Both the position numbers and the translations under genes were made by a program. A DNA stretch of 64,000 nt, taken from Branchiostoma floridae (lineage: Eukaryota; Chordata; Leptocardii; Amphioxiformes; Branchiostomatidae). Numbering within the stretch: position 1 is the first letter of the stretch; the number at the start of each line of letters is the position of its first letter. The stretch covers positions 24,077,907 to 24,141,906 of the forward strand of contig NC_049985.1 of the NCBI RefSeq assembly GCF_000003815.2. Direction: 5' to 3'. Below the pieces are notes generated by a model, which saw only the letters and a program-made list of their open reading frames with translations, did no database searches and was not told the DNA's origin. Shown one piece after another: positions 35,935-60,480 of the stretch.

Positions 35935-36060
35935 ATGAATAATTAATGAGGCTCTGGCCGCCGGGGTATATTACAGAAGGCTTGAAAAGTTGCAAATGAA
36001 GCAACGATCGACCGTCGAGTAGGGAAGACCCCGACACCCTCTCTCTCTCTCTCTCTCATC
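35935..36060 (+). promoter_or_regulatory. Candidate POU4 distal promoter and 5' UTR with POU4-type site
   Basis: ATGAATAATTAATGAG at 35935-35950 contains ATAATTAAT, the core of the established class IV POU recognition sequence (GCATAATTAAT). Seventeen bases further on, TATATTA at 35967-35973 is TATA-like. With the usual spacing, transcription would start near 36000, giving a leader of about 60 bases ending in a CT run before the ATG at 36061. The arrangement fits an autoregulated POU4 promoter, as known for vertebrate Pou4f1, but the link to the gene body 18 kb downstream rests on the splice signals described below. Confidence 0.5.
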
Positions 36061-36063
36061 ATG
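36061..36063 (+). CDS. Candidate POU4 exon 1: initiator ATG only
   Basis: The leader ends CTCATCATG and is immediately followed by the donor GTAGGT at 36064, so the exon would contribute only the start codon, in phase 0. Joined directly to the exon at 54260 it would give M-MMNGKQHISMHP, which resembles the vertebrate POU4 start (MMSMNSKQPHFAMHP). With the two microexons included, the N-terminus would be longer by 28 residues. No transcript evidence is available here. Confidence 0.42.
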
Positions 36064-36769
36064 GTAGGTGGATTTTAGTCCGCTTTTTGCGGCGCTTTTT
36101 TCTCGGTCGCTAAATAAGGGATCGCCGGTGTCGTTTTAAGTCCTTCGCGGTGGGCAGAATTTATTTTAATTTCGGCACTTTGTATGTATGTTTACAGTTA
36201 TGCTCAGAGATGCAAGTTTCTCTTAGGTCGTATGTATAATAGATGCGCCCGTGAGTCGGCTATTCATACTTCATTCTTCTAGTTTCCGAAACATAAGTAT
36301 TAATGATACCTACTCTAGTGAGTGTTTATTCTTAACTCGATGGGGATAGGAATTGCTTGGGTGGTACTAGCGTGCCTTACCGTGGAGTTACAAGCGAACA
36401 CGGAGGGCAATGGGTCGGCCGGGGCACCTTACGGGCTTGCTGGCCGGGCTGGCGGCCCATGCCCCCGGGCGGTTCGCTGGACGCGTGCCGTGAACAAAGG
36501 ACCTCTCGTGTATGTCTACCTGCCTTTGTCGGAACCCACCCAACCGCTCCCTTCCTGAAAAAACAAAGGACACAGGTACCGCTGTTTCCAGAAAACATTA
36601 TCAAAACGTCGCGTTTCAGAATTATCCACGTCTGTGTCGGAGAAGACCGCAAGGGATCCAATATTTATACAAAATATATTTTATTCAGAGTTGTACTAAA
36701 TACTTCTTGCCTCGCGGCCAATTTGGATCATCCTGTTGTCTCTATAGCTTGACGTCTGTTCGGAGCTGT

Positions 36770-36838
36770 CAGTTCGCTTCAGCACGACAGGTGTAAAGCA
36801 TGACCAGGGGGTCAGGGGTTCGAGTCCCACACTCCAAA
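36770..36838 (+). mobile_element. tRNA-like relic
   Basis: GGGGTTCGAGTCCCACACTC is a good B-box and T-arm. Upstream, GCTTCAGCACGACAGG could be a decayed A-box region, but no acceptor-stem pairing is visible. A SINE head is more likely than a tRNA gene. Confidence 0.4.
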
Positions 36839-38610
36839 CAAAGACAAAATAGCAAACAATTCAACTGGAAAACGTCGCCCAGAAATTACATAGGCGGTTG
36901 TCGTATGTACCTGTTCTCAGGCCCACCGCTATAAAGATGACAATGCGGGGATGCCATCTGTTTAGGTGGGCTACAAACCTATCTACAAACCTACAACATG
37001 ACAAAATTGCGCAAGAATGGACTGGTACGGAACCCGGAGGACGAGAAAATTTAAAGGTCTTTATGCTAAGTGGTGAAGAGGATCTTTTTGCCCGGTAATG
37101 TATATCTGATGATCTTTAAAATGCGCTCACTGTGAGCTTGACTGCGTAATTCTTCTACCATTTGGTTCGGATGATGAGATTTGAATGGCGACCGTACCCG
37201 GAACAATTCACGGATAGAATGGGCCGACATTTGCCCAACTTCAAGTCAAGTGGATTTCCTGAGTATTTTAAACTGTAAACTGTCTCAAAATCCCTTTAAT
37301 GACAACTTAATTATTGTACCGTAATCTAATTTGTAAGTGTGAACAGTTTTAGATATCTCTATTATTGAGCATGTAAAACCTGGCTTCACACAAAACTGTA
37401 TGTCACAAATATTCTAGCTGTCCTTGTGTAATTATTGCTGCTACAAATAGAGCGGTTGCTTAGCGAGTGACAGACGGTCGTAGCGTCCCGTATCACCGCT
37501 CCACATCTGCCTTTGCCTCGGTGATCTTTATCTTTTTTCCCGTGGACGATATAAGATCGGAACCATTACGATTTAGTCCTCCTTTCCCCTTTAACATTAC
37601 AGTTAAAAATTTCAACATTACTGTTAGAAATTCTGTGTTGACGCCAAAACTTAACCGTACGTTCAAACTTAGCTCAAATTTCTACCATGATTTCATAAAT
37701 ATACGTATTACCTGCTTAGCTTCTTTACCGCATATTCTGATCATTTTATTGTCTACTTTTCAAACAAAAAAATTCTTTATTAGAAAGCACTGTAAAGTAA
37801 ATATGTGGTCGGTTAGGAATCAAAGTACATTAGATTCTGCCATGTTTCAAATTTGATTTTTATCTTTGTCGTTGCCAAAATTATCTAGTGCACCCATAGC
37901 GTAGATTTTGTTTTCTTTCCGAAAAAGAAGTTAATTTTTGTTAGCACCGTTTCGTTTGTTACCAAGGACATTTTTGTCACTTGTTAAGGAAAGTTGTTCA
38001 AATTAAAATGCCTACAAAAATATAGTTCGTTGCGTGTGGTGACATCGCAATTCACATTTCTATGCCGTTAACTGTCGAGTTAAATTGCGTGCGTTTTTTG
38101 TTTCCCTCAATTCTATCCGTCCTTCTTCCACATTCCGTGCATTCGTAGATTTAAGTGGTATCTAGTCCATAAAAAGGGTCAGGTTTTATATCTATTCACG
38201 TCCCGGATTTAAGAGGGGATTCTCAAGTTTGGAAGCAGGTGAAACTACAGGAAATTGGGGTCAGGTTTTCTGTGAAAACATCACCCCTATTGTCTCATAT
38301 ACACGCAGGTAAACAGGTTGTCTTATGGCTTGTGTTATGCGCTGTGTGTGCGTATTTTCTTACGGGACGTATAAATGTGGTAGCGTATTGTATAAACAGT
38401 GGATACAGAAGGAAGAAACAGAGAGAGATGAATTCCTAGGAGAGGTGGAAAAATCGCATCCACCTAGGGATCAGTCGACTATGAATTTCTCATGCGACGG
38501 ATTAAAGATGGCTTGGTGAAATCGCACGGTGAGACTCGGTAACTCGGCGGACGTGTCTCGCGGATATGTTCACCTAGTAGTAACAGCCAATAGATACCAT
38601 CTTCGTGAAA

Positions 38611-38846
38611 CCCCTTTTTCTATGCACTAGACAACGATCGCGCTGCTCTCGCGCTGCGACCGAAAACTAGTGTGTGAAACCTTCGATTTTGTACAGGGTG
38701 TGCCATACAAAATTTTAAAGTGTGACAGAAAAGACAACAACGCGTAAAAAGATTTGTTTGCTTCTCTTCAATTCGTTGAGTGATCTGTCAAATTTTAGGT
38801 TGAAGAGAGAGCGCTGTGAGAGCGCAGTATTAGTGGAAAAAGGGGG
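38611..38846. mobile_element. Family-A element (copy A5)
   Basis: Starts CCCCTTTTTCTATGCACTAG, then ACAACGATCGCGCTGCTCTC. The right arm AGAGAGCGCTGTGAGAGCGC ends ATTAGTGGAAAAAGGGGG. The core AAAAGACAACAACGCGTAAA and TTCAATTCGTTGAGTGATCT is in the reverse orientation to A2. Confidence 0.88.
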
Positions 38847-38879
38847 TACAGTGAAGCTCTTGTAACGTTCTCTCGATTC

Positions 38880-39032
38880 CTCCTAGAACACGGGACCCCA
38901 TTTTACGTCCTTTCCGAAAGACGAACACATCTCCAACTAGGATACTCTTCCGCGGATTCGAACCAATTACCAACTAATTAGAACCAGGAATTCAACTATG
39001 AAACACTACCCATTGCGCTACAGGGACGACTA
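38880..39032 (-). mobile_element. tRNA-derived SINE relic
   Basis: GAACACGGGACCCCATTTTA, CGTCCTTTCCGAAAGACG and, at the tRNA-like end, GGATTCGAACCAATTACC and CCCATTGCGCTACAGGGACG. On the minus strand this reads GTCCCTGTAGCGCAATGGG (A-box) and GGTTCGAATCC (B-box). Same family as 20781-20957. Confidence 0.7.
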
Positions 39033-39915
39033 ACTACTGAGAAAACCTGTAAATCCTCCAAAGGCCTCAAATATTCGAAAAGAAACGTATCAATCGTGAT
39101 GATATGTTAGTCCATATTCCCGGAGGACCACTCTTTCACCATCGTTTTTCTGTCCGGCTAAGAATGTGCTGACACCCGCTCCGCCATGGGGCCTCTCACC
39201 CAGACGGTTTCTATCACACAATGGAAAATTTAAAACGACCATTGGAAATATCAGAAATTATAGTTTGACTGTATTTGAGATTATTAACAAATAAGAATCT
39301 TGAAAAATATGAGCATTTTTAAAGAATTGTGCAAATATTCCACAAATGTGAACACCAAGTTAGACATATACTATCTGATTTTGAAATCGCGTTTTTATTT
39401 CAAGCGCAATCGTCTTTTTACCAATGCTTACGCTGAAGCCATGTTTTGAGTCTTGTTTTAAACTATAGTATCACCAACTTAGTATGTACATTTGCGTGTA
39501 TACAGTGTTATTTCTATTTGACAATTATTATACAGTAGGACGCCGAAATGTCTGTGCATTTGTAGGATATAAAATCATATCTAAGATATATCGATAGCGA
39601 CAATTGTAGTTGAGTTTTCAACACGTTTAAGAGTATGAAGCGGACAGTAACTTTTTCATTTATTCATTTATTTCAAATTCGTCAGAATACAGAGAACACT
39701 ACAGTTCTTGGACACTATTCCTTGATACAGAAAATATCATTCTATTGACCTCTTGGTTATAGTAATAGAAGTTGACCAGGTTTTGCTTTAAAGCTAGGTT
39801 GAATCAAATACGTTTCATTACATGTACGATCATTTGTATGGTTTAGATGTAACAGGGATATTGTTGTTTACATCATGTTTGTTTATTTCTTTGTCCTTTG
39901 TTTTGTCCCTTACAG

Positions 39916-39954
39916 CATCAGTATCGGCTAGACCTCGGAGGAACATCCATGCAG
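39916..39954 (+). CDS. Candidate POU4 microexon (39 nt)
   Basis: A strong acceptor (TTTGTTTTGTCCCTTACAG to 39915) and donor (CAG followed by GTAAGA at 39955) enclose 13 phase-0 codons, HQYRLDLGGTSMQ. It is compatible in frame with the ATG exon at 36061, the exon at 40666 and the POU4 exon at 54260. The peptide is not part of any POU4 N-terminus I know. It could be an alternative lancelet-specific exon, or belong to a separate small gene (see the alternative terminal exon at 52099-52122). Confidence 0.45.
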
Positions 39955-40003
39955 GTAAGAAAGCTTCAGTTGTGTAACTTTTCTTCAAAAGATTTTTGTA
40001 GAC

Positions 40004-40211
40004 ACCTTTTCCACTAGACGTCGATCATGCTGCGATATCGCTACGACCTAAGCTGGATTTGTGCCCCCTCCCCTTCTATTTCATAATTGGAATATCATAC
40101 AAAATTCATATGCAAAAAGTTATGAATGAAAAAAGACAACAAAGAGTAAAGCGTAGAAATATTAGTTTTTTACCGATGAAATTCGCAGTTCGGTCGCATC
40201 TAGTGGAAAGT
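40004..40211. mobile_element. Family-A element (copy A6)
   Basis: Left ACCTTTTCCACTAGACGTCG and right TTCGGTCGCATCTAGTGGAA with shortened arms. The core AAAAAGACAACAAAGAGTAA and TACCGATGAAATTCGCAG is in the same orientation as A5. It lies between the two microexons. Confidence 0.78.
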
Positions 40212-40665
40212 TTGTGTTTTTAATACCAATGTAATTGTCTTTTCGTACGTTGTAGATAAAGTATGGTTCTTAATCATAGCTTTACTAATTCTAATCCATT
40301 TCGGAAGTATGTCTTTCCTGTTTTTGCTTGCTACCCTGATATAGAATTTTCAAAAATACATGTACAAAAGGGAACTCTCCTTTTATCAATACAATTGCGC
40401 TAGCGTGATGTTTTGTGTTATGTCAGTTAACATTATATATCTCCAACACATGAATGTGTAACATACATTGTACTGAATATTTTTCAATTGTAATGTTAAA
40501 ATGTTATAACATGTATTGCTAAACGTAAATATATTTCTATACTATGATATTGATTTCGCTAAATATCTCAAATTGTTGCTCAATGCTGAGCTTCGCGCGA
40601 TGTCGCTGTTGAAAATACCCGTCTGTTTACCCGTTGTTTGTTTGTTTGTTTGTTTGTCTACGTAG
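40212..40665 (+). other. Remainder of the intron between the two microexons
   Basis: AT-rich. It ends in TTTG repeats (40637-40656) that form the polypyrimidine-like tract before CTACGTAG. No other feature seen. Confidence 0.4.
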
Positions 40666-40710
40666 CGGAACAACAATCCTTACGTCTTCCTTAGCAGTGA
40701 TGACACTTCC
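40666..40710 (+). CDS. Candidate POU4 microexon (45 nt)
   Basis: Acceptor TTTGTCTACGTAG after a long TTTG tract and a consensus donor GTAAGT at 40711 enclose 15 phase-0 codons, RNNNPYVFLSSDDTS. It lies 711 bp after the other microexon and is in frame with it and with the exon at 54260. The polar, Asp/Ser-rich end would precede MMNGKQ. The identity of the product is inferred from frame, strand and position only. Confidence 0.45.
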
Positions 40711-41285
40711 GTAAGTCTTGAACCTATCTATGGGTTGGGTAGGGATAGAATATAAAAGCTCCTTCGTTAGAACGAACATTCCAAATAAGAACTTTTTTCT
40801 TGAAATAGTTGAACTGTAATTTCCAGCACAAAATTGGAGTCACCCAAATTTTCGACTGAACAGCACCAGTCTTTGTCAAGGAATGAACAATCCACTGCTG
40901 TCGTGACGTCACGTTATGCAGGTAGAACACGTGACTCAGTGAGCAGTGGATCATAGGTTGCTGAAAGTCTATGGCGCCCACCGTCTCTGTTCAGTTTTTG
41001 TTTCAAAATTCCTGAACTTCTCTTTGTGGATTTCGCTAGGTTTCAATTCTTTTTTTCAATCGTTGCTTGGACCATGAGAAAGATGTTAACTTCTCTTTAG
41101 AAAACCTGAGTTTATAAATCTGAGACTATGCTTCAATAGAATTATATAGACATACATATTTGTTCTTCTATCTGCCGGTCATCCCATGTTTTCCCTACTA
41201 CGTATTGTACAAAATGTCAGTTTATAACATTTTGTACAATTTGAATAAAGAGGGACAAATTTAGATGAAGCTGTCTCGGGTTTAG
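40711..41285 (+). other. Start of the long intron before the main POU4 exon
   Basis: Contains a compact group of transcription-factor sites at 40904-40938 (listed separately). The minus-strand 85-codon frame 40724-40981 has no recognisable domain. Confidence 0.4.
40904..40938. promoter_or_regulatory. CRE, E-box and AP-1 site cluster
   Basis: Within 35 bp lie a perfect CRE (TGACGTCA, 40904-40911), a CACGTG E-box (40928-40933) and an overlapping AP-1 site (TGACTCA, 40932-40938). The cluster is 194 bp downstream of the candidate microexon. It could be an activity-responsive intronic enhancer. The sites are seen and the function is inferred. Confidence 0.35.
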
Positions 41286-41287
41286 GC

Positions 41288-41543
41288 CTCCATTCAACTA
41301 GACGGCGATCGTACTGCAACCTCGTTGCAACCTAAATCGGATGTGTGTAACCGTTCACTTTATAATTAAAAACTGCCGCAAAATGTAAAAGTTTGACAGA
41401 AAAGACAACAAAATACACAAAGCGATTTTTTTATCTATAAAGTCGTTGAGTGCTCTGTAAAATAACTCTGTCGTAGCTCGGTCGTAGATCGGTTGTAGTT
41501 CAGTCGTAGCTCGGTCGTGACGAAGTCGCCGTCCTATCGGGGT
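41288..41543. mobile_element. Family-A element (copy A7) with expanded right arm
   Basis: Left CATTCAACTAGACGGCGATC and core AAAAGACAACAAAATACACA. The right arm carries a tandem expansion of CGGTCGTAG (41468-41520) before AAGTCGCCGTCCTATCGGGG. The other copies have the short CTCACTGCGACC or GGTCGCAGTGAG segment at this place. Confidence 0.8.
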
Positions 41544-41708
41544 GACGTCAGATCCCTGACGTGTATTTGAACCGACGCGTGGAACGTATCCCGTGGGACA
41601 TGCGGCTTTTTATTCTGTAAATCTCTTGTTGTTATCATAATAAGGTATAGAAACTAAATGGATAAATCACTGAAGTGTTCGTCCTGTCTTCTCTTCTCAA
41701 CACACTAA

Positions 41709-41947
41709 AGGTGGTATCTCACTGCACTTGGGGCACCGGTGCGGCACTGTGGGGTTCGTTCACTGCGGCACTGCTTTGTTATTTTCGCTGATGTTTTTAG
41801 ATATTGCGTAATACATAAATGTATGACTTAGAAAACAGCAAAATACACAAAACGTAAGAATATCCGTTCTTTATCTCTAAAATTCGTTGAGTCATCTACG
41901 AACCCCGCAGTGCCGCACCGGTTCCCCCAAAACAGTGAGATACCACT
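41709..41947. mobile_element. Family-B inverted-repeat element (copy B1)
   Basis: Termini AGGTGGTATCTCACTGCACT and AACAGTGAGATACCACT, with GGGGCACCGGTGCGGCACTG and CAGTGCCGCACCGGTTCCCC inside each arm. TTAA follows at 41948-41951 and CTAA precedes at 41705-41708, consistent with a TTAA target. The core (GACTTAGAAAACAGCAAAAT, TTATCTCTAAAATTCGTTGA) is shared with family A. Confidence 0.92.
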
Positions 41948-41951
41948 TTAA

Positions 41952-43440
41952 GCAATGTGTTTTGAACATTGTGAAAGATAGTACGTTTTATCCAACATTC
42001 CAACAAAAATCTACACCGTTTCTTCATTGGGGCAACGTTTCAAACTATAACTGACAAAGAAGATCAAGACCACTCTGGGGACCGGTAAGATGTTGTCTAT
42101 ATAGACAGGTGGTCACTTTAGACAGGATTCTTAATACTTGTTAAAATAAGTATTAAGAATTAAAGCGGCATCAGCAAAATTATCTACATGTCGGAGATTG
42201 CACAAGATTGTATCGAAATAAAAGATAAGAATATGAAGGCATACGGATTTTAAAGCTTGATAATACTCAATGTAATATTAGGAAATTGCTTGAAGTTTAT
42301 GACAATTTCGTTGTATGGTATGTTGTGTCTATTCTATCGCAATTGACAAGAATAGTGAGGGAATGAAAATCGGACATCATCTAATCTCGTAGAAAAACTG
42401 CCAGTATGGTTACATTCTGCTATAGTGCATTTTTTGGCACCACCAGAAAATGGGGAAACCACAGTGTGGATCGTATTTGCGGCGTTTACAAATGTCGCGA
42501 ATATAAAATAATGTGTTACATGTGTATCTCAATGTTAATGATATAAAGATTTTGCTATCCAGACTATTTTTGGTCTTGTGGAAAAAATCTACTTTTAATA
42601 CCTTTCTAAGCTTAAACTGTATTTTCAAACTGCATACGAAAAGCAAATCCTATTCGTATCTGAATTAGTATTCGGAGAAAGCGTCTCACGATGACAATGT
42701 GTCCCATCATTTTATCTTGTCTGTGAATCCGCTATATGTGTGGGAAAATGCCGGGGGCGAGACAGAGACACACGCCAGGCATGAGCAGGCATTCATCGGT
42801 AGGATTTTGCTCAGTCACGCACAAGACTTGTTCTACACAACAACCATTTTAAACTAGAACTTAGAAGGGATTTAGTTCCTGTGAAACATCAACAAAACAG
42901 GACGCCGAGTAGCGATGGTTTGGTACCGAAACGAGATAAAAAGATAAGAATCGTGCCTGGTACGTTTAGTTTGATTTTCGCGATCGGGAATATCCGTTTG
43001 ATTGACATCTCTGCAAGCGACATTTCGTTCTTCCAATCTCACCTTTACATTGACAAGATAAATCTAACGTCAATATTATACTAATCAACATTTGAAAACA
43101 TCCCACCAAAATATACCATCGAAACAAGGAAATACCAGACTATTTTTTTAGCCTGAAAATACGGTTATATACTGGTACAAAACATGTGAAGACATATCAA
43201 ACGAAAAAATCTTTAGATTGATCATCACAAGAATATCAGAAATAGAATACGAAACGAAATAATACTGCAAGAGTAGAACGGAACATGTAAGTTTTTGTAG
43301 CAAGATATCTTAACATTTTAGTAAAAGGTTATATTGTGGCATATTTGTGACTATTCACTATTGTGGCGATAACTGTGATATCATTTTTTCTAAAATTCTC
43401 TCAATAACTCTCAGTTTCTTGTGACCGTCCCATTGATTTT
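41952..43440 (+). other. Intron or intergenic, nothing recognised
   Basis: A direct repeat of AATACTTGTTAAAATAAGTA forms a small palindrome near 42131-42158. No exon-like feature apart from a weak donor at 43287. Confidence 0.4.
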
Positions 43441-44250
43441 TAAGCACAATTCGTAAAGCATTTGTGAACCACTACCATGCAAAATCTTACAGAAAAACGC
43501 ATTTTTCGTCTAACTTAAACTATGCTTAAATGTTGGATTCTGTGCAGTGTCCATTTCTGTTTGTTACACCGTAATTTGAAGAGCGTGGTTCTGTATCTTT
43601 GAGAAAAATCAGCCCATCTTTTCTCCCCTCACGATCTGATTTTCAACATTCGTAAAGCATTTGTAAAGAACCACTTCCATGCAAAATCTTCCATGAAAAA
43701 CGCATTTTTCGTCTGTTTTAAACTCTGCTTAAATGTTGGGTTTTGTGCAGTGTCCATTTCTGTTGTCAGGCCGTAATTTGAAGAGCTTGGTTCAGTATCT
43801 GAGAGAAAAATCAGCCCATCTTTTCTCCTCTGACGATCTGATTTTTAACATTCGTAAAGCATTGCTGGTAAAGAACCACTTCCATACTGAATCTTACAAA
43901 AAAAACGCATTTTTCGTCTGTTTTAAACTCTGCCTAAAGGTTTGGGTTTTGTGTAGTGTCCATTTTTGCTGTTAGGCCGTAATTTGAAGAGCATGATTCT
44001 GTATCTGAGAGAAAAATCAACCCATCTTTTCTCCTCTCACGTTCTGATTTTTAACATTCGTAAATCATTTGTAAAGAACCATGTCCATGCAAAATCTTAC
44101 AGAAAAAAATGCATTTTTGGTCTGCTTTAAACTATGCTTAGATGTTGGGTTTCATGCAGTGTCCATTTCTGTTGCTAGGCCGTAATTCGAAGAGCGTGGT
44201 TCGGTATCTTTGAGAAAAATCAGCCCATCTTTCCTCCTCTGACGATCTGA
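43440..44250. repeat. Tandem array S6, ~204-bp monomers
   Basis: Four copies. ACATTCGTAAAGCATTTGTA recurs near 43450, 43648, 43850 and 44055, each followed by CATGCAAAATCTTAC, AACGCATTTTTCGTCTG, GTGCAGTGTCCATTTCTGTT and AGAAAAATCAGCCCATCTTT. Frame 43733-43975 is a translation of it. Confidence 0.93.
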
Positions 44251-47200
44251 CGACTCTTGACTCGTCCGTAATGGTGGCTGGGAGGCCATTTACCGCGCCG
44301 ATTGGAAAAGATCTCCCCTAAATTTCGTTTCCGCCAAATTTGGCATTCAGGAGGCGAGGTGGGGGATTTTCGCACGGAATTGTGTTGTTTCCTTCGTTTA
44401 GTGCGGCAACCCGTGTAAAAAGGATGGGGTATATGTAGGGTCAACGGGGCTGGTGTCATTTCAATGTTACACACGTTATATAGAAGGTATAGATCCTACT
44501 GCAAAATAAAATAGGTATTTCTTCATTGTGGTTAATTGTAAGCATTGTTTCCGGTAGAATTGTGAGGAAATATTAATCATAACATTCTTAATATATGAGT
44601 TACATCTCCTCCAAAGAAATGGCGTATTATGTGAAGAGTTAAATGTAAAAAACGTGATATTTTATATCTTCAAGAAGAATTAAGTGGGCTAAATGTATAC
44701 ATTTGCGTTCGCAACAAAGATAAGCCTTTTCTTCGATTCCTACAAAATTTCTGAACGAATCCTGAAACAGTGTCTTTTAGCTGTACCGATTGTAATGCAT
44801 GTTTACGAGAAAAGCGAAGTGTACACGCCGTGTACCGTTTTAACTACTGATAACACTCGCTGGAAGAGAGATTAGAGTGTGCTGCACGGCTGCACGATAA
44901 AAAGGGGGGATACAGGGATGTCCAAATTAAATTTCAGCCCTTGCTATCAACACCCCATCGCCAACAGAATTTAATTTGTCTCTTATTTTTGTGACTCTCT
45001 TTAACCTAACAGATAAAGCACCTCTGTTGCAGTCGAGAGCAAAAAAAAAGAATGAAAAAAGAACGGCCTCTTTTCTCCAAAGAAAACGTAAACAAGAAGA
45101 CAACGGGTTTGAAATTGTTTCTAAATTACTGTTTGGGTGAAAGCGCCACGAACAAAGGGTTTATTGGCGCGACATATGGTTATGAAAACATAATCAACGT
45201 TATACGCGGGCTCAATTTTGCACGGAAGTGCATTGTTCGATTTTATCAGGAGCAAATTGAAATTCTTCCTTCTAAAAATTGATGAAACATTGTCCATAAA
45301 ATTCTCATTTTCGCCGCCATATCCAGGTGTTACGATGAAACGAATACGATGCTATCTACCCGATATTCACTTATTGAATATGTCAAGAATAACGTTTCCT
45401 GTTATTCTAATTCTTTTTATATTGACTTCTAAAAATTAATACATTTTCTAGTTTGAAAATATAGTGTTCATTTTCAAACGAAATTTTCACATGGAACGGT
45501 AATTTCGTTGAAACATTTTGAGATATCGTAAGAAATATGTGTATCTGATAGAATGGCACAACGACTCGCATTTTGATGACCTCACCTATTGTTCTCGGAA
45601 CATAGACAGATACAAAAGACAAAATTTGAAAGGGAACCTTCAAATTTACGCCTTTTAGTTCAGTTAGGAATGTTTTAATTCAGATCCGTTACAAAGAACG
45701 GTATGATAGTGTTAAAATGAGTTTAGAATCTGTCGTTTTTATAGAGGGAAGACCTATTCTTATACCACACACGGTCGCCCGCACATTTTTCACCTGAGAG
45801 AACAACATACGGTCCATCCGGGACATTTTGCAGACGATAACAATTGCCTTCGTACGTGACCAGGTGCTAGTTGCTAGGGCGGGGTTCCAAATTCTGAGGA
45901 AAACATCCACCATTTGAGCATTTTTCTGTCTCAGAAATCCGAAATTCTCTTTGCTATATGGAACACGTGCAAGTATCCATTCATAGCGACACCTCAAAAC
46001 TGTATGTGCGTTTTACTGAGGAAAGTATTCGATCAAAATACCACATACTTCGTCACTTTGTTCGTCCGCCATTTAAAAATGAACGACGAATAAAAAACAT
46101 GCCGCCCTGGCTGCTGTTTGCAGCGCTCAGAGGCGCCCTCTAGTTCATTTTCCCGCCAAATTCTTGCATACACAATCCCTACTACACACACACACGTGTA
46201 TAGGAACTCAAAGTTCTAAAAAATTCATGCCAAATTTGCTTCAATACCGCGTATTTCATTATAAATGTAAACACGGCGGGTTCTCTATTATACCGTCATT
46301 TGATCTCTGCACTTCCCTCACCGCCGCCCCCCTCCCCCTCACAACAACGAAAGCTTCACAATTAAATTTCACTGATGTAATTTCGCCCGCGATTTAAGGA
46401 GAAGATATCGTATCTGGCCGCACAGTCTTAACTGCTCTTTTTGTTTCTTGAATAATTTATTTTGGAAAGTGGCGGAATTTGGAGGCTTAACGCGTAGAGT
46501 TGTAGCTATGTCTGGTCGTACAAGTAAGCTGAGAACGGGTACAGTGAATCTTAAATTGTCTCTTAGGTACAAATAGCAAATTCGTTCCTAATCTCAAATG
46601 GTGGCAATTTACTTAAATCTAAGTTGTACTTGAATTTGATTTTTCTACACTTTCAAATACCCCAGATAAATATCATATCAGATGAAACTTTTAATAACTG
46701 CATTTTCTAGTGATTCAGTTTTTCATATTGTGACAATTTACAAGGATTAAGTCTTGTTGCAAAATTGACACGAAAATTTGTAACAAAATTCGGTTTCATT
46801 TTAGAAAGAATATCTTGTTTTCGAAACAAATTCTGGTAAAAAAACCGCATTTTGTCTTTTCAAGAATAAAGTCACTAGTTGATCGCTGTAACTTCACAAA
46901 AATAAGACATGTAGCAGACATAAAAGCAAAAACAATTTGACATTTGTTAGCTTGTCTTGTAAGTTACTTGCATACCTACAACAGAATGAAAGCAACATCA
47001 AAATGAACTTTATATCAGAATTGAACTTTAAGACAACGTCTTTAATGAATTTGATGTACACACAATACTATTTCCACGAAATGTTGTAAAATCCAGCAAA
47101 TGACAACAACGGAAAGGATTTATCGAAACCCTTCTGTCAGAAATGTTTTTTTGTTGTTGTAATTTTTCTTGTGCTAATAATGTAGACACTACTGACAAGA

Positions 47201-47610
47201 AACGAATGTTAGTTTTAATAGGTATTAGTCCCTTAAACCGACCAACCATTAACTTATTAGTTTGTTTCAAAAACGTTCGTCTGGCTTGAATTTTTACCTA
47301 ATAGAAAGGAAAATGTTGTGTCGTAGTAGACTGGCGTTTTGCCATGTTGTCCCGTCGGGTCAAACCAAATGCGAGACCCTTGGTTCCGTTACCACATGAC
47401 GTCATATGATTGACGGCCCGTTCGCGTGACCCTGTCTGAGTTGGCCACGCCCCCCTCGCCTAAAGTGTCGTCCATTTGACAATTACAAGTGGCAGCGTAA
47501 ACAACATCCTCTCGCTGTCACACATGATGTAGGACCCCACATGGGGGTTTCACTTCCACAAGGAAGCGGGTTAAAACATGGTATATAGGGGCCATTTTAT
47601 ATCTTTACAA
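44251..47610 (+). other. Intron or intergenic, no gene recognised
   Basis: Short frames at 44220-44474 (-), 45052-45282 (+) and 45689-45997 (-) lack domains and splice context. A minus-strand CTCF-like motif lies at 46132-46146 and a second perfect CRE (TGACGTCA) at 47397-47404 near CACGCCCCCCTCGCC (Sp/KLF-like). No repeat shared within the window. Confidence 0.4.
46132..46146 (-). promoter_or_regulatory. Candidate CTCF-type motif, minus strand
   Basis: The minus strand reads GAACTAGAGGGCGCC, matching the SYAGRKGGCR part of the CTCF consensus. Its orientation faces the plus-strand motif at 32184, and the pair brackets the candidate POU4 promoter. The motif match is seen and the function is inferred. 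Confidence 0.25.
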
Positions 47611-47823
47611 CCCACTATAGGGCGGCGACTTCGCTGCAACCGCCCTGCGACCGAGTGATTCAACTCAAAGAATTTCAGGGACAAAAAGATGAATCGATTT
47701 TTTGTATGTCTTTTGCTGTCTTTTCAGTCATACTTTTACGTTTCAAAAGATATTCACATTATGAAATTAAGGGTTACAAAAATTGAATTTAGGTCCTGGT
47801 GAGGTCGCATTTTCGTGGATTGG
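47611..47823. mobile_element. Family-A element (copy A8)
   Basis: Left arm GGGCGGCGACTTCGCTGCAA, then CCGCCCTGCGACC. The core AAAGAATTTCAGGGACAAAA and TTTTCAGTCATACTTTTACG is well preserved. The right arm is eroded (GGTCCTGGTGAGGTCGCATT). Confidence 0.8.
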
Positions 47824-48385
47824 GTGTCTTACCTGTATATTTAACACCAGGTGAGCAGGTTGTGTGACGTCATATTTCACCTGTGCGCTTGGATAAAGAG
47901 AGAGTAGCTCTTTGTTTGGGGCCAACATTCGAATATCCTTGGAATATAACTACAGTAAGAGTGTACCAAAACAAGTATGTAACGCCCATTGTGGTAATGG
48001 TATGAACCTAGGGATAGGCTATATAAATGGCATTCTTGCTACCTTGTTTTGATTATTTTAGAGACGACAATGAGAAAGATCTCGGTATTTGTGGCCGGAC
48101 ATTTTTTCTTGGTCTCTCAGGTCTTGTTGTCGCTAATGTGCCTCACTTGTAGCTGAAATGGTCTGAAACGTTTCTAATTCTAGAGGGGATTGAGGTAAAA
48201 ATCGGCGCCAAAAATGACCCCGCTGCGAGTTTTGGCACGCTATCTGGGAACAGAGGAAAGAAAGGGAGATAGCGCACCCAACAAGAGACATCCATCAACT
48301 CATTTGATTCCATTTGACGAAATGTTGCAATTACTGAGTGATTCGGCTGGCGTCACATAAACATATGGCGCGCCTGGACGATAGA
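47824..48385 (+). other. Intron or intergenic, nothing recognised
   Basis: An acceptor-like ATTTTTTCTTGGTCTCTCAG near 48120 is followed by only a short open frame and no supporting donor. No other feature. Confidence 0.4.
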
Positions 48386-48386
48386 A

Positions 48387-48632
48387 AGGTGGCATCTCAC
48401 TGCACTTGGGGCACCGGTGCGGCACTGCGGTGTCCGTTCACTGCAGTGTTATTTTCGCCGATTTTTTGTACCATTTAGATATTGTGTAATACGTACAGTA
48501 TATGACTTATAAGACAACAAATTGCTAAATACACTAAACGTAAGCAAATTCAATCTTTAGAAATTTGTTCAGTGATCTTTTGAACCCCGCAGTGCCGCAC
48601 CGGTGCCCCAATTGCAGTGAGATATATACCGA
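48387..48632. mobile_element. Family-B inverted-repeat element (copy B2)
   Basis: Left AAGGTGGCATCTCACTGCAC, right GAACCCCGCAGTGCCGCACC and CAATTGCAGTGAGATATATA. Interior GCTAAATACACTAAACGTAA and GAAATTTGTTCAGTGATCTT matches the shared A/B core. The target duplication is eroded. Confidence 0.88.
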
Positions 48633-48905
48633 CTTAGAGAGTGAACGGGACTGTGTTAGGCATGGATTTAGGTCAGGATTATCCGCTAGAAATCAGATTA
48701 AATCCGCGGATTTGTACCAACGAAAGCAGGAAAATAATTTTTCTTCTTATAATTCTTCCGGAAACACACTAACAGTCATTATGGACATTTTTGTTAACGC
48801 GGTGCTAACAAAGACAGGAAGGGAAAAATGGACGTACAAAACTCTAACATTGGATGAGTTCAACTTTGCACATATTAAACCTGTACAAGTGAAGACCTGT
48901 ACATA
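48633..48905 (+). other. Short unique stretch with an unrecognised open frame
   Basis: A 113-codon + frame (48565-48906) starts inside the family-B element and ends in the following repeat. It contains no recognisable domain and is probably chance. Confidence 0.35.
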
Positions 48906-49235
48906 AAGACCACCTGGTCAATATGATTTACTGGTTCGTCAGATAATTTTTTCTTTTGACACAAGCATTTAGAATCTCTAGTGACCACCTGTCCACATAG
49001 ACCGAAATTTTACCTGGTCCCTCGAGTGATACTAATGGTCAGTTTTTATTTTTTTAAATTTTTTATTTTAGAAACAATTTTTGTCAAGGCTATGATTTCT
49101 AACTTGTACAAGAAGATTTTCCATTGTTTGTAAGCATTTAAAATCTGTCTCTAGTGACCACCTGTCCATATACACCAAATTTTACCTGGTCCCTCGAGTG
49201 ATTCTATTGGGCAGTTTTATAACTTCCTTTTTTTT
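48906..49235. repeat. Two ~175-bp direct repeats
   Basis: AGTGACCACCTGTCCACATA, then TTTTACCTGGTCCCTCGAGT and GATACTAATGGTCAGTTTT, recurs 175 bp downstream with small changes. The half unit at 48910 (AAGACCACCTGGTC) suggests a third, decayed copy. Confidence 0.85.
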
Positions 49236-50218
49236 TCTTTTAGAGACAATTTTGTGAAGGCTATGATTTCTACTAGTACTTTATAGTTTCTATTAGTACT
49301 CAAGCTAACCTTACTTTCGGCCTCAGCAAGTCGACCAACTGTTTCCCTCTGACCAGCCGTAATCATAGCAAAGTGGAGGGTAACTGTCGTAATGAGCGTG
49401 TAATAGCAGCTATTCAGCCGGGCGTAAGAGTAGTGGGAGGGGAGACAGGCTGTACTTATAGACGGTCGCGTGCCGGGCACGTGCCGGGGAGGACTCTCGG
49501 GAACAGGTGCGGGCAGGCCCGTAGGTGTTCTCCCAGTCACCCGGCGCCTACCTGACGGGGTCGAGTCTACCCTCGGGGCAAAACCTCAACCCTTTCTCAA
49601 TTTTTTAAAGAGTTGAAAAGCGTTAAAATTTATTACCTGGTCACGAAAACTAACCGCTTTGACCTCTAACCTATGATCGCTCACACGTTGGCGCGAGATT
49701 TTTTTTTGGGGGGGGGGGGGCATGTTTGTTTTCCCTTCACCTTTTTTACCTTCCGTGACTGGCTTCGCCCAATTAGATCAAATGGTCATTGCCTCTAGCC
49801 ACGCGCAATTGTGATAAATGGCGGGCCGAGGACGGTAATAGGTCAAAAGCCGTAATTTTATTTTCCCTCGCGAGGGATGGATGGCAAAAAAAGTTCTGTC
49901 TTCTGCCACTTTTGGATCGTAAATCTTTTGTTCGCATGATATTAATGGAGGGGTATATTTAGTCCCGCGGTTGACCCATAGACGGAGTTTGCCATTGTGA
50001 TAGAACAGAAGTTAGAAAAGCTTGTGTCAGGTAAAGCCAGCATGGGAACGGTAAGGTGATAAAAATGTCAGGGAAGCGACGAGTCATGCCCCCGGGGCTC
50101 GGGACGGTCGTTAGTTTACCCCCGGGGCAAACCCTATGGACAGTCCCGCTTGCAATCACACACGCATGGGGCCAACTTTCACAACTAACAACTCCTTACC
50201 CCTATAGGCTATGACCTC
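49236..50218 (+). other. Intron or intergenic with a GC-rich patch
   Basis: The segment 49380-49570 is GC- and CpG-rich (GTGCCGGGCACGTGCCGGGG, containing a CACGTG box). A G-run lies at 49708-49720. No exon or domain recognised in the overlapping frames. Confidence 0.4.
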
Positions 50219-50397
50219 ACAGCGGCAGTTGAGCGACCCAAAATTTCAGATCACACCACAAACTTCAAAGATAACAATTTCTTTTACGATTCGAGTGCCT
50301 TTTCATAAGTCATATTTTCACTCTTTGCATCCGACTTCAATCATGAACAATCCATTTTTGTCACTGTACAGTCGCTCAGCGCTCGCCGTCCAGTGAA
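50219..50397. mobile_element. Decayed family-A element
   Basis: CACAGCGGCAGTTGAGCGAC at the left and TACAGTCGCTCAGCGCTCGC with CGTCCAGTG at the right are diverged terminal repeats. The core TTTCATAAGTCATATTTTCA corresponds to the family box. The right end resembles the S3 satellite version (CTGTACAGTCTCTCAGCG) more than the other copies do. Confidence 0.65.
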
Positions 50398-52098
50398 CAA
50401 ACTAACCTCCAAACAGGGCACTGTAGATAACCACGTTAGCAGACTTTTGGGCTGTTTTCTTGCTTCGAATAATGTACTGTTTTTTTTAAATCGTTCTAGC
50501 CTGTTATAACTAGCCTGCAAACCAGTTTAAGACCGCTTGCTGTTCGCTGGGTGGCGAACCATTCGCTGGGTGGCAAACCATTGAAAAAAAACACCAACAA
50601 GAAAACAATAAGCCTACTACGGAAGCTAACTGTATTAAAGCGTGTTGTGCTCCGATAGTTTTTTAAAGGGACAATGGGGAAGGCTATGTTTACAGTAGAT
50701 AAAGAGAAGACCTTGATTTTCCTTTAATGCCCGTAGGGTTATAATTTGTCACAAAGCGAAGGGAACATATGACAGATGGTGTCGATGTTATGTTAGGACG
50801 CATGCCCTCAACAGGGGACAATCTTTTTTTTAAAAAGGATAACAAATTTTGCAACGTATGTGAAACTATGGCAGTATAGTTATAAAACATACCCCCTTCT
50901 TTATTTGAAAGAAATGTAGAAAGTATTCTACTTATCAGTTGTTATCATATTTGGTATCTTTTATAGTTGTTGCTATTTATTATTTCGGTTCATCAGCTGT
51001 AATTACTATTGTTAACCTTTTGTATTTTCAAGAAAACGTAGCAAAGTTCCCTACGGTTTCTTTACATAGCAACTTTGAGTTAAGTCAACCCTTTAGAATT
51101 GCCTATTTAGCTGGTCTTGAAAGTAATACTAAATAATGATGCAAATATGCTAAGACAAAGTGGTCATACATGTCATTCATATCCTGAAAGTTTTGTTTTC
51201 GAGAATATTTTCAATCTTGGGCCAAAATTTTACATAAGGTCCTTCTAAACATATTCCATAGGAGTACATTTTGTAACATAGAGTGGTAAGGTTATCAATC
51301 TATTCAGACAACTTATTCTATTTTACCAGTAGCCTATGTAGTCTGGTAGAGACTACATACTCGTCCCTTGCCGCATGCACCCTGGTATTACCCCCCTCCC
51401 CCCCCCCCCCCCTTCTTCCATCCCAGGGGACTTGTCACGGATGAAACGTTTTGTAAAATATGGTCGCGATCAGCAGGTAGACCGTACACCTGTGGGCATA
51501 GATCAAAGGACTCACCGACAGGTGTACAAAAACAACGTCAGACGGTCAGGTATGGCACCACCGGCGCTAAAACTACAGAAAGAAAACAATACCAACCATC
51601 TTACTTACTTAATGCGTATGTTGAGTAGTCTTAGATTTCGAAAATGTTTTCGACGTGATTAAAAAGCCGTTATTTTCTTTCGCTACCTTTGAGAGAGAAT
51701 AAGTCCCTTGATACCACGTTATCAGACAGGTGCGCCTATTGTTTAAAACTCACCTGAGATTTCGTACACGTCAAAACAATGCAAATATTTTGGCCTTTGA
51801 GTGACACATGTTTAAAAGGTTTTCGCGAAATGATGCACTAGTAATCGTGTTTTAAATATCAAAGCATTTGTCAAAATAGCTATTTCATAAAATGGTGCTT
51901 ATCGCTAAATTTATCAGTTGAAACATTTTAAGTTGTGATAGATATATAAGAGTTTCACTTGTGATGTGCACCCGTTTGTGTTTTGTAAATTTAAAATAAG
52001 ATCTGAAATCGGCATAACTCTTTTCTGCAATGTTTCAATTAAAGAAAAGGTGTCTTATTTTTTCATTGGTAAGCAAATATTATTGTATTTTTTGGCAG
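50398..52098 (+). other. Intron or intergenic, AT-rich; C-run at 51390-51413
   Basis: A homopolymeric C tract with overlapping proline-rich frames. A doubled GTTCGCTGGGTGGC lies near 50541-50570. No gene recognised. Confidence 0.4.
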
Positions 52099-52122
52099 GA
52101 CATCTATGAAAAGAGTTACTGA
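52099..52122 (+). CDS. Alternative candidate terminal exon (24 nt)
   Basis: Acceptor TTGTATTTTTTGGCAG to 52098 followed by seven phase-0 codons and a stop (DIYEKSY). It would close in frame the series 36061, 39916, 40666 into a 36-residue protein independent of POU4. It is recorded because it is the main competing explanation for the microexons. No polyadenylation signal is obvious just downstream. Confidence 0.15.
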   Translation, partial: DIYEKSY

Positions 52123-54259
52123 ACTGAGTATGAGCCATTGTCTTAACACTTACAATTGACGGTACAAGCATTACAAAGCAAAAGAAATCCATATTGAATT
52201 CGAAATCATAAACACGTTGAAACAAAGACATTGCTATTTTTGTAACTTTTATCTAGTAAGGAATCTGAGATGACATTTTGATAAGAAAACAACCTATTCT
52301 GAAAATATCAGATTTGAAGTAAACTCACCTTAAAACTTTCCTATCTCGTACTGATTTAAAAGAACCACATGTAATGGTCGCATATATGCGTATTGTACTA
52401 CTTAGATGTATAATTTTGAACAACAGAAATAGCAACACTGTTCAACAACATCAAAACAGACCGTCTCAATGATACAAGTGTATTACTCGTGCGAACTCGC
52501 CTTATAGTATACTCCTCTACGTGTTCAATACACAGTCGAAATATATGTCCAGGTTACATTGTATATAACACAATCTCACGTGCTAAAAACGGCCGCCACA
52601 ACAGCTAGAGATTGGAATATAACCGCTCAGTGGGTGTCTGACCTAAACCAGTTTGGATTACACGAATTTCGGAGAGCCAAATTGAATAAGTGCCGGGGCT
52701 ACATTCGCAGATTGTCGCAAGGCTTATCGTAACAATGCCTCCGTCTCACTAGCTTCTGCCAAATTAATTGAGTGTTGAAGGCAGGTTCCGTGCGCTTGCC
52801 GCGTACCGCCTCAGTTCTTCCGCCCCCATATGGGACTAGTACGCTCCCCTTTGTGTCAACCGTGCGTCCCTGGCTTTCACCACACCTGTATACCTGCCGT
52901 CTGTCCATACACGCGAGGCAAGGTTGTGTACAGTGCACACACATTCACCCCCTAATGTTTGTAATATGCTCTAATACCCGCCCTTAAGCTAGGTATTATA
53001 GGCCCGACATTGTTGATACGGCACAGAAAAAATAACTGTTCGTATAGAACTAACAGAGGGGAGATTTTGAAGCGAGGGGAGTCGGGGGACAAGAGACAAA
53101 GAGGAGAGTGGTGATATTCGATACCGAGCTATTGAGACCGTGATTTCCTCCCAAAACTCCGCGGAAAATATCGAGCGCCGCCGCCGTGCTTTGTTGGTTG
53201 GTCCGCACGGGGAGATGGCGACTCGGTCCCGGTGGAGGGATCGGGTCACTAGGTGTCGTCACCCGGTGCGTACGAGGCGGGCGTGGCCACGGGAATAACT
53301 CGGGCCGTCCCGAACCAATTACCCAAATTGTTCCAGCGTTTCGCCCCATTTGCCGCCTATACCGGCGCGCGAGCTGCAAAACCAATGTTTGGTCGCGGAA
53401 AATTAAATCTCATTGTCTACCCATCTACCCCCCCTCTTCTCTCTTAAAACGTCAGGTTGCGGATAGAAAAAGATCAATCCAAGCGCTACCTAATGAAGTA
53501 TTACCCATTACAATGTAACACCAGCTATCCCAGCATAGATGGGCCGTAACCACTAACCCATCCCGTCTTTAAAGCACAGCTTTGGAATCGAACGCATCCA
53601 TCTCAAAACCTTCCTCCCTACCTCAAACAAAAATATAGGTGAAACTCTCAATCCAACATCGGAAGCGATCTCTTTTCTCTCAAGCCTCGTTTGAAGTGAT
53701 CGTTTCTATAGTTCCGAAAACTCTGTGGTTTCCGAGTTATTAAAAATTCATACCTCGCCCGCCCCAGTTTTTTTCTATGATCTTAAATAAGCTGCTATGT
53801 TTCCGTTCATCTTTCCTCTTGGTGCTGGGGTGATATTAACAGAGTGGCGGGTGTCGCATTGAAAAAGCCCACCGTTAAAACACCGCGCCGTCTACGCAAG
53901 TCGGTGTAACACTAGATCCTCTTAAAAAGATGACTCAATGTTGCGCAGTCCGAGATTTATTAGAATTAAAATCTGCCCAGGGAGCGTTCCCTAGTGTCTA
54001 TCGCCTTTCTTTCTTTATTTTTAGAGGCCGGGAGAAAATTATAAATGATGCTCGGCAGTTCCGAGTGAAGGCGCTTAGTGCGCACGCGTCAGGGGAAAGA
54101 GTTGTGTGTGAATGCATACATAGAGTACAGAAAGAACAGGTGCAGCTGGTATACAAAGCCAATATATTTTCTAGCGTTGTCTCTCACGAGCTATAGGAGT
54201 GGTGTCATCCTTGGCTGGGTGTTTTGGCGCGGGCTGAACAGTCCCTTCTTTCCTTCCAG
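52123..54259 (+). other. End of the long intron upstream of the POU4 main exon
   Basis: CpG-rich at 53140-53360, with overlapping frames on both strands and no recognisable domain. A tRNA-like relic lies around 53530-53600 (CCACTAACCCATC, GGAATCGAACGCATCC). The stretch ends in TTCTTTCCTTCCAG at 54259, a good splice acceptor, which shows that the ATG at 54260 is not the transcript's 5' end. Confidence 0.45.
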
Positions 54260-55543
54260 ATGATGAACGGGAAACAACACATCAGCATGCACCCTCCAAT
54301 AACTGCCGGACCCAAGTACGCCCCTCTCCACCGCACCTCGGAAGCCATGCGCCGGCACTGTATGACAACCCCCCCGGTACGTATGTATATATGCATTAAG
54401 CCATGGGCACCCAGAACTTGTCAGACTTCCCTTTATGTTTTTTTCATCGTCGAACTCCAATAACCGTGGAGTAAAGGTTCATTTATGTGTTCAGCCAAGC
54501 CTGTTCCATATTTTATGACCCAAGTCAGATTTTCATTCTGGCTGTGTTTAAAACACTATCTAGGGCCTATTCCCCTCTGACTCAAAACTGCATCTATTTG
54601 CAATTTCCAGAGCAATATATTTGCGGGGTTGGATGAGAGCTTACTCGCTCGTGCCGAGGCACTGGCGGCGATCGACGTGGTCTCGGGAAGCGGCGTGAAA
54701 CACTCACCGCAGCTCCTGCGTCCTGACACCGGCTACCCCGGGATGAACGGCACGGCGCACTCCCCGGCGACTTCGGTGGCGGGGCCGGGGCCTCACGTCT
54801 CCCACCCTCTCCCCCACCATCCTCACAGTTTCGCCGCCGACAGCGAGGCTTCACCGTTCGATCAACTCCCAACGACTTCTCTACCGCTCAGTATGAGCAT
54901 GGCCGACCCGAACTCTCCCGTGGTGTCCTCAGTGTCATCCATGGCGCCCACACACATCCCAGGGATGCACCCCGCCCCCACGGGCAACATGACAGGCATG
55001 TCCCCCCACCACCTCGTCCCCAACCCCCACCACCCCATGTCTATGCACGATCCCAACGACACGGACCCTCGCGAACTGGAAGCCTTCGCGGAACACTTCA
55101 AGCAGCGCAGGATAAAGCTCGGTGTAACGCAGGCCGACGTGGGGCAAGCCCTGGGCAAGCTGAAGCTACCCGGTGTAGGCTCCCTCTCTCAGAGCACCAT
55201 CTGCCGTTTCGAGTCCCTCACACTCTCCCACAACAACATGGTCGCTCTCAAACCCGTGTTGGAAGCGTGGCTCGGCGAGGCCGAACAGCAAGCCCGCGCC
55301 AAACAGAGGAGCCCGGACATCTTCAATAACGCCGAGAAGAAGAGGAAGAGGACGAGCATTGCCGCGCCGGAGAAGCGGTCGCTGGAAGCCTACTTCGCGG
55401 TCCAACCTCGCCCGTCCTCGGAGAAGATCGCGGCGATTGCCGAGAAGCTGGACCTGAAGAAAAACGTGGTACGCGTGTGGTTCTGTAACCAGAGGCAGAA
55501 GCAGAAGAGAATGAAGTTCTCGGCGCAGCAAGGCGGGAGATAA
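54260..55543 (+). CDS. Class IV POU homeodomain transcription factor (POU4/Brn-3)
   Basis: Two exons, 54260-54376 and 54611-55543, joined in phase 0 across a 234-bp GT-AG intron (donor GTACGT, acceptor TTGCAATTTCCAG), give 349 residues from MMNGKQHISMHP. Residues 1-39 resemble the POU4 N-terminus (SEAMRRHCMTTPP). The POU-IV box is at about 42-64 (GLDESLLARAEALAAIDV), a Pro/His/Ser/Met-rich linker at 65-189, the POU-specific domain at about 190-265 (DPRELEAFAEHFKQRRIKL, SLSQSTICRFESLTLSHNN), and the homeodomain at about 282-341 with WFCNQRQKQKRMKF in helix 3, including the POU-class Cys. The length is close to vertebrate POU4F3 and the linker lacks long homopolymers. The family acts in the nucleus, binding ATAATTAAT-type sites to specify sensory neurons. 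An acceptor abuts the ATG, so at least one exon lies upstream (candidates at 36061, 39916, 40666; 378 residues if all are used). The family assignment is certain. Confidence 0.97.
54377..54610 (+). other. POU4 intron between the N-terminal exon and POU-domain exon
   Basis: 234 bp, GTACGT to TTTCCAG. Its position, just after the PP that precedes the POU-IV box, is where vertebrate POU4 genes have their intron. The LQ dipeptide that vertebrates have at the start of the second exon is absent: the second exon starts directly with SNIFAG. Confidence 0.93.
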
Positions 55544-59119: not shown

Positions 59120-60480
59120 CTGGAAATAGCTGACAAGAGAGCAGGGATAAAAATTACTCTTGTGTTCCTGCCAAGTAGAGGATGTATGTACTACAAGCGA
59201 CTCAAAACTATAACTGACGAGAGAGCAGGGATAAAAATTACTCTTGTGTTCCTGCCAAGTAGAGGATGTATGTACTACAAGCGACTCAAAATTATAACTG
59301 ACGAGAGAGCAGGGATAAAAATTACTCTTGTGTTCCTGCCAAGTAGAGGATGTATGTACTACAAGCGACTCAAAACTATAACTGACGAGAGAGCAGGGAT
59401 AAAAATTACTCTTGTGTTCCTGCCAAGTAGAGGATGTATGTACTACAAGCGACTCAAAACTATAACTGACGAGAGAGCAGGGATAAAAATTACTCTTGTA
59501 TACCTGCCAAGTAGAGGATGTATGTACTACAAGCGACTCAAAACTATAACTGACGAGAGAGCTGGGATAAAAATTACTCTTGTATACCTGCCAAGTAGAC
59601 GATGTATGTACTACAAGTGTGCAGTCAACTCAAAATTATAGCTGTAAGAAGAAGGGATAAAGATTACTATTGTGTTCCTGCCAAGTAGGGGATGTATGTA
59701 CTACAAACGACTCAAAACTATAACTGACGAGAGAGCAGGGATAAAAATTACTCTTGTATACCTGCCAAGTAGAGGATGTATGTACTACAAGCGACTCAAA
59801 ACTATAACTGACGAGAGAGCAGGGATAAAAATTACTCTTGTGTTCCTGCCAAGTAGGGGATGTATGTACTACAAGCGACTCAAAACTATAACTGACGAGA
59901 GAGCAGGGATAAAAATTACTCTTGTATACCTGCCAAGTAGAGGATGTATGTACTACAAGCGACTCAAAACTATAACTGACGAGAGAGCAGGGATAAAAAT
60001 TACTCTTGTATACCTGCCAAGTAGAGGATGTATGTACTACAAGCGACTCAAAACTATAACTGACGAGAGAGCAGGGATAAAAATTACTCTTGTATACCTG
60101 CCAAGTAGGGGATGTATGTACTACAAGCGACTCAAAATTATAACTGATGGGCTGAGAGAGCAGGGATACAAATTACTACTTTATACCTGCAAAGTACAGG
60201 GTACTAGTATATGTATTACACGCGTACAGTCGACTCAAAACTACATATACAGGATTTATGTACTACAAGCGTACAATCGACCCAAAGAATAATCTAAGGG
60301 ATAAGAATTACTCTTGTATACCTGCCAAATACAAGATGTATGTCCTACAAGCGTACAGTTGACTCAAAACTACAACTGTAAGAATAAGGGATAAAAATTA
60401 CTATTGTATACCCGCCAAATACAAGATATATGAACACCGCAAGCGTACAGTCGACTCAAAACTATAACTGTAGGAATTCC
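59120..60480. repeat. 84-bp minisatellite with an open plus-strand frame
   Basis: About fifteen units. The core from 59137 to 60145 is an almost perfect 84-bp tandem (GAGAGCAGGGATAAAAATTA, then CTGCCAAGTAGAGGATGTAT and GTACTACAAGCGACTCAAAA). The right part (60150-60480) is degenerate with longer units. Because 84 is divisible by 3, one plus-strand frame stays open for 159 codons (59162-59641) and, after a variant unit, 206 codons (59672-60292). The 28-residue period contains LPSRGCMYYKRLK and TDERAGIKITL. Minus-strand frames are closed. I find no splice sites, promoter or known domain, so I annotate a repeat and not a gene. Confidence 0.93.

Follow-up and report, generated by a model that had tools for sequence, protein, structure and literature searches.

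Candidate upstream exons and a very likely 5' intron of the POU4 gene of Branchiostoma floridae

The stretch of DNA analyzed here, referred to as the window, comprises 64,000 nucleotides of the lancelet Branchiostoma floridae (contig NC_049985.1, positions 24,077,907 to 24,141,906 of the forward strand) and harbors POU4, a control gene of sensory neurons whose 5' end is the subject of this work. The gene very likely has a 5' intron lying directly before the exon that starts with MMNGKQ, as judged from its splice acceptor. For the locus as a whole we give roughly even chances to an ordinary POU4 gene, made up of this 5' intron, the MMNGKQ start, a first exon at either 53.2 or 36.06 kb and a 39-nt exon that may be present in some transcripts. 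A sequence-only reading of the same stretch had proposed three small coding exons, i.e. an ATG at 36061, the 39-nt exon and a 45-nt exon, each with strong splice sites. The upstream intron and the 39-nt exon of that proposal hold up, while the 45-nt exon and the choice of 36061 as preferred first exon do not; a set of three coding microexons that extends 18 kb upstream is one model among several, not the leading one. The features under discussion are collected in Table 1.

Table 1. Features of the POU4 locus, in window coordinates; exon assignments upstream of 54260 are candidates
Feature	Position	Strand	Scores and remarks
Putative POU4-type binding site TGAATAATTAATGAG above the candidate distal exon	35936..35950	+	motif match
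ATG followed by donor GTAGGT; candidate end of a distal first exon	36061..36063	+	donor 3.84
39-nt candidate exon HQYRLDLGGTSMQ, probably real	39916..39954	+	acceptor 8.01, donor 7.06
45-nt candidate exon RNNNPYVFLSSDDTS, probably chance	40666..40710	+	acceptor 3.56, donor -0.04
CpG-densest 300-nt window (35 CpG), promoter candidate	53101..53400	.	100-nt steps over the whole window
Rival proximal first exon, 17 codons MATRSRWRDRVTRCRHP	53215..53265	+	donor CCG/GTGCGT at 53266, score 4.68
Possible noncoding exon of the 5' untranslated region, with TATAAAT	54025..54139	+	acceptor 7.48, donor 1.61; TATA at 54040
POU4 N-terminal coding exon MMNGKQHISMHPPITAGPKYAPLHRTSEAMRRHCMTTPP	54260..54376	+	phase 0 at both ends; acceptor 8.33, donor CCG/GTACGT 4.35
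POU4 exon 2: SNIFAGLDESLLARAEAL box, POU-specific domain, homeodomain, stop	54611..55543	+	Pfam and PDB matches

The N-terminal exon is immediately preceded by ...TTCCTTCCAG, an acceptor whose score is reached by only 3 of the 3388 AG sites on the + strand of the window. That an acceptor of this rank coincides with the start codon is strong evidence for a 5' intron, which would end at 54259, and this part of the earlier proposal is well supported. The acceptor alone, however, fixes neither the position of the first exon nor its coding status; since MMNGKQ suffices as a start, a noncoding first exon in the 5' untranslated region would do. From these data we infer the splicing events, promoters and start codons considered below, and propose that the main transcripts would join a largely untranslated upstream first exon to 54260, translation beginning at MMNGKQ. 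The likeliest first exon would lie in the CpG-dense stretch and end at donor 53266, with 36.06 kb as a second, distal promoter candidate, and the 39-nt exon would probably be a real exon of the distal transcripts. Spliced-leader trans-splicing, considered as a cause of the acceptor at the ATG, was set aside, as the titles and abstract openings of 10 of the 26 matching papers contain no lancelet report.

Splice sites were scored with a generic metazoan weight matrix, and ranks are given as the number of + strand sites in the window scoring at least as high as the site in question, among 3388 AG sites and 3973 donor sites. Sequences, phases, site strengths and control rates were read or computed directly. 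A lancelet-specific calibration of the scale on chaperonin (PF00118) genes was tried but not adopted; in these genes nine adjacent exon pairs at three loci yielded six plausible introns, with donors of 2.0-7.9 and acceptors of 1.4-8.8; these six scores lean high because each belongs to the top-scoring join of its pair, and the other three pairs, all from one locus, were dropped, having no join or only negative-sum joins. Chance rates come from two controls. The first is a genomic set of 20 unselected 10-kb stretches of the same genome, read on both strands (400 kb-strand), which may contain true exons, the only effect of which would be higher control counts. The second is a Markov null of 400 third-order copies of the 18,196-nt intron.

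By its predicted product, the gene belongs to class IV of the POU genes, based on the POU-specific domain, the homeodomain and the POU-IV box. The two domains are matched in exon 2 by Pfam (Pou, E 5.1e-31; Homeodomain, E 5.3e-18), PDB chains of POU proteins also match this exon, and the N-terminal POU-IV box, whose motif is LLARAEALAAxD, was found there by direct reading. A DNA search of the assembly (513,431,437 bases, 431 contigs) with both POU4 exons returned a single match, the gene itself, and cephalochordates are described as having one Pou4 gene in PMC9953854. No retrocopy or second haplotype that would reveal the junctions was seen in this search or in a second one, which scored 40 of 3394 candidates and could miss one, and Rfam at the gathering threshold gave no match over the whole window.

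The 39-nt exon, flanked by ...CCCTTACAG upstream and GTAAGA downstream, has an acceptor that ranks 5 of 3388 and a donor that ranks 2 of 3973. Its GC content is 0.54 against 0.34 in the flanks, and 4% of the 39-nt windows within 39.4-41 kb are equally GC-rich. Among the Markov copies, exons of 15-60 nt reaching its summed score occur with a mean of 0.01, and phase-0-open ones not at all. This null is too kind, because the real intron, with three pairs of up to 300 nt at that score on the + strand and one on the - strand, far exceeds the Markov mean of 0.055, and real DNA is hence the better control. At the same score the genomic control holds no pair of 15-60 nt, and seven if any length up to 300 nt is admitted (a rate of 0.32 per 18.2 kb strand); for the short pairs the rule of three sets an upper bound of about 0.14 per 18.2 kb strand. 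The 39-nt exon is above chance, supported by the strength of its splice sites, its length and its phase, in agreement with what had been claimed for it. Being in phase 0, its inclusion would leave the POU4 frame undisturbed, and since it ends in ATGCAG it could itself supply the start, giving MQMMNGKQ.

Concerning the first exon, the candidate ending at 53265 would be separated from 54260 by an intron of 994 nt, the join being in frame, and its ATG at 53215 (GAGATGG) lies in a better Kozak context than that at 36061. Between 30 and 54.26 kb, 24 donors score at least 3.8, and for five of them (32609, 36064, 39955, 50051 and 53266) the preceding 150 nt contain an ATG that is open in phase 0. As 18.2 kb of one control strand yields 4.4 such candidates for a coding first exon, five represent no excess. 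By donor strength 50051 (5.59) outscores 53266, which in turn outscores 36064. What distinguishes 53266 from the other candidates is its location in the CpG peak: a density of 35 CpG per 300 nt is reached by none of 1940 control windows, and the observed to expected CpG ratio of the 300 nt upstream is 1.17 above 53265 versus 0.72 above 36063. The exon at 53215-53265 could equally be untranslated. It is possible, if somewhat doubtful, that the proximal promoter is the only one, in which case the first exon would end at 53265 and the DNA at 36-41 kb would be noncoding, either regulatory or intergenic, with splice-like sites arising by chance. The CpG peak, the donor with its strong-context ATG and the length of the intron all agree with such an organization, but it leaves the exceptional 39-nt exon without explanation, and it has to contend with the chance frequency of coding first-exon candidates and with the higher donor at 50051.

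Several observations weigh against the gene model preferred here, in which the 5' intron is preceded by a first exon at 53.2 or 36.06 kb. The 53266 junction is on its own no better than chance, and use of the ATG at 53215 would move the start away from MMNGKQ. Across the whole intron, 13% of the 39-nt windows match the GC content of the 39-nt exon, and two longer pairs, 51427-51549 (16.3) and 49244-49506 (15.2), both closed in phase 0, outscore it, which shows that high-scoring decoys exist in the same intron. Finally, transcription from the TATAAAT at 54040 could run across the acceptor and give an unspliced product. As a separate observation, these two splice-like pairs and a third, 47728-47850, outscore the known N-terminal exon, and may be either decoys or noncoding exons of the 5' end.

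The donor that follows the ATG at 36061 ranks 46 of 3973. ATG-ending donors at least as strong number nine in the 400 kb-strand control, i.e. 0.41 per 18.2 kb, hence the ATG/GTAGGT junction alone is no evidence. With its donor at chance level and a nearer candidate, 53266, scoring higher, the ATG at 36061 is not favoured over its rivals as first exon. Above it, 110 nt upstream of the ATG, lies the putative POU4-type site TGAATAATTAATGAG, which is the sole match in the window with fewer than three mismatches to a 15-base POU4 motif. This site overlaps, with one mismatch each, both POU4 consensuses published in PMC3692409 (gcATAATTAAT and a/gCTCATTAAt/c), and contains the bilaterian core AT(A/T)A(T/A)T(A/T)AT given in PMC8846589. 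The A form of the 15-mer has 44 copies in 513 Mb versus 2 for a reversed control; with C or A at position 3 there are 4961 genome copies, including those 44, and the C form has the appearance of a dispersed repeat. The binding-site argument is weakened by the fact that the site was picked out by eye before any test, and the published consensuses, at one mismatch or less, are not enriched in the window relative to shuffles (2 vs 2.6 expected; 13 vs 20.7). We consider it unlikely that the gene is transcribed from a CpG-dense proximal promoter at 53.2 kb and also from a distal one at 36.0 kb that POU4 itself regulates, the transcripts from the latter carrying the 39-nt exon and thereby encoding an N-terminal extension not known from vertebrates.

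It should also be mentioned that TGCATAATTAATGAG, which resembles the POU4 high-affinity site, has about 4900 genome copies. In the places listed they are often spaced 118-128 bases, as though they belonged to a dispersed or tandem repeat, and copies of this kind might sequester POU4 protein.

The 45-nt exon lies between ...GTCTACGTAG and GTAAGT. Its acceptor, whose tract is a (GTTT)n run, ranks 80 of 3388, and its donor TCC/GTAAGT ranks 415 of 3973 and is lower than all six plausible chaperonin donors. Pairs of the same class (phase-0-open, 15-60 nt, with minimum scores of 3.5 for the acceptor and -0.1 for the donor) number 37 in the 400 kb-strand control, a rate of about 1.7 per 18.2 kb strand, and 12 on both strands of the window, the 45-nt and 39-nt exons themselves included. 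At this control rate the 45-nt exon is indistinguishable from chance, and it is probably not used; the assertion that every exon has strong splice sites is not confirmed by the scores. The letters, coordinates and phase-0 joins that had been proposed are all present in the window, splicing in silico with both small exons reads in frame as MHQYRLDLGGTSMQRNNNPYVFLSSDDTSMMNGKQ..., and omitting both gives MMMNGKQ.... The vertebrate POU4 start is MMSMNSKQ; none of six N-terminal peptide strings was found in the literature searched. That transcripts begin with the first exon at 36061 followed by the two small ones, that all three are coding, and that N-terminal isoforms result from alternative inclusion is decidedly unlikely: every join is in phase 0 and open, the 39-nt exon is strong and a POU4-type site lies upstream of 36061, but the 45-nt exon and the ATG donor are both at chance level and a nearer first-exon rival exists. 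Very improbable is the case in which there is no 5' intron and transcription starts near the TATAAAT at 54040 and continues unspliced through the ATG at 54260, which would leave a leader of about 190 nt from the presumed start site. Vertebrate genes do start at the equivalent exon, but an acceptor ranking in the top 0.1% would then coincide with the ATG by accident, and the ATG at 54112 begins a short upstream frame.

The surroundings of these candidates contain several repeats. Downstream of the 45-nt exon, the stretch 40794-40994 belongs to a high-copy dispersed repeat, with at least 40 near-full-length genome copies at 91-95% identity and at least 11 further partial matches. Neither the exon region at 36.0 kb nor the two small exons gave another match in the repeat search, which scored 40 of the 3394 candidates and skips simple repeats, and is therefore weak evidence for single-copy status. 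The region upstream of POU4 also holds two copies, 69% alike, of an element of about 170 nt (38626-38793 and 41297-41463), which a stretch near 40012-40220 resembles, as judged by eye. Downstream of POU4, at 59126-60200, an 84-base tandem repeat of 12.7 copies displays long open frames on both strands, its period being divisible by 3.

Isoforms and small exons are known from related systems. Drosophila acj6, a class IV POU gene, reportedly has splice forms with distinct function in odor receptor choice. The neural microexons that depend on Srrm3/4 are, like the candidates here, short in-frame exons in a neural gene, and are marked by a UGC motif shortly before the acceptor. The 39-nt exon has no UGC in the 100 nt that precede its acceptor, and the 45-nt exon has it only at -89 and -82. 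As the lengths of 39 and 45 nt also exceed the 3-27 nt given for the class in PMC12626424, assignment to the Srrm3/4 microexons was rejected.

The amphioxus Pou4 (AmphiPOU-IV) is likewise a single class IV POU gene in PMC9953854, the main text of which is without the words exon, intron and isoform. In vertebrates, according to PMC3692409, POU4F1 and POU4F2 have long and short N-terminal forms that originate from alternative promoters together with splicing, and whose effects on a target promoter differ in vertebrate cells. The lancelet proposal differs in that it would add residues upstream. At present this is a gene-model question open to testing, not a finding; if the lancelet gene does produce N-terminal forms of its own in another way, the isoforms of this sensory selector would have diversified before the vertebrate duplications or independently of them.
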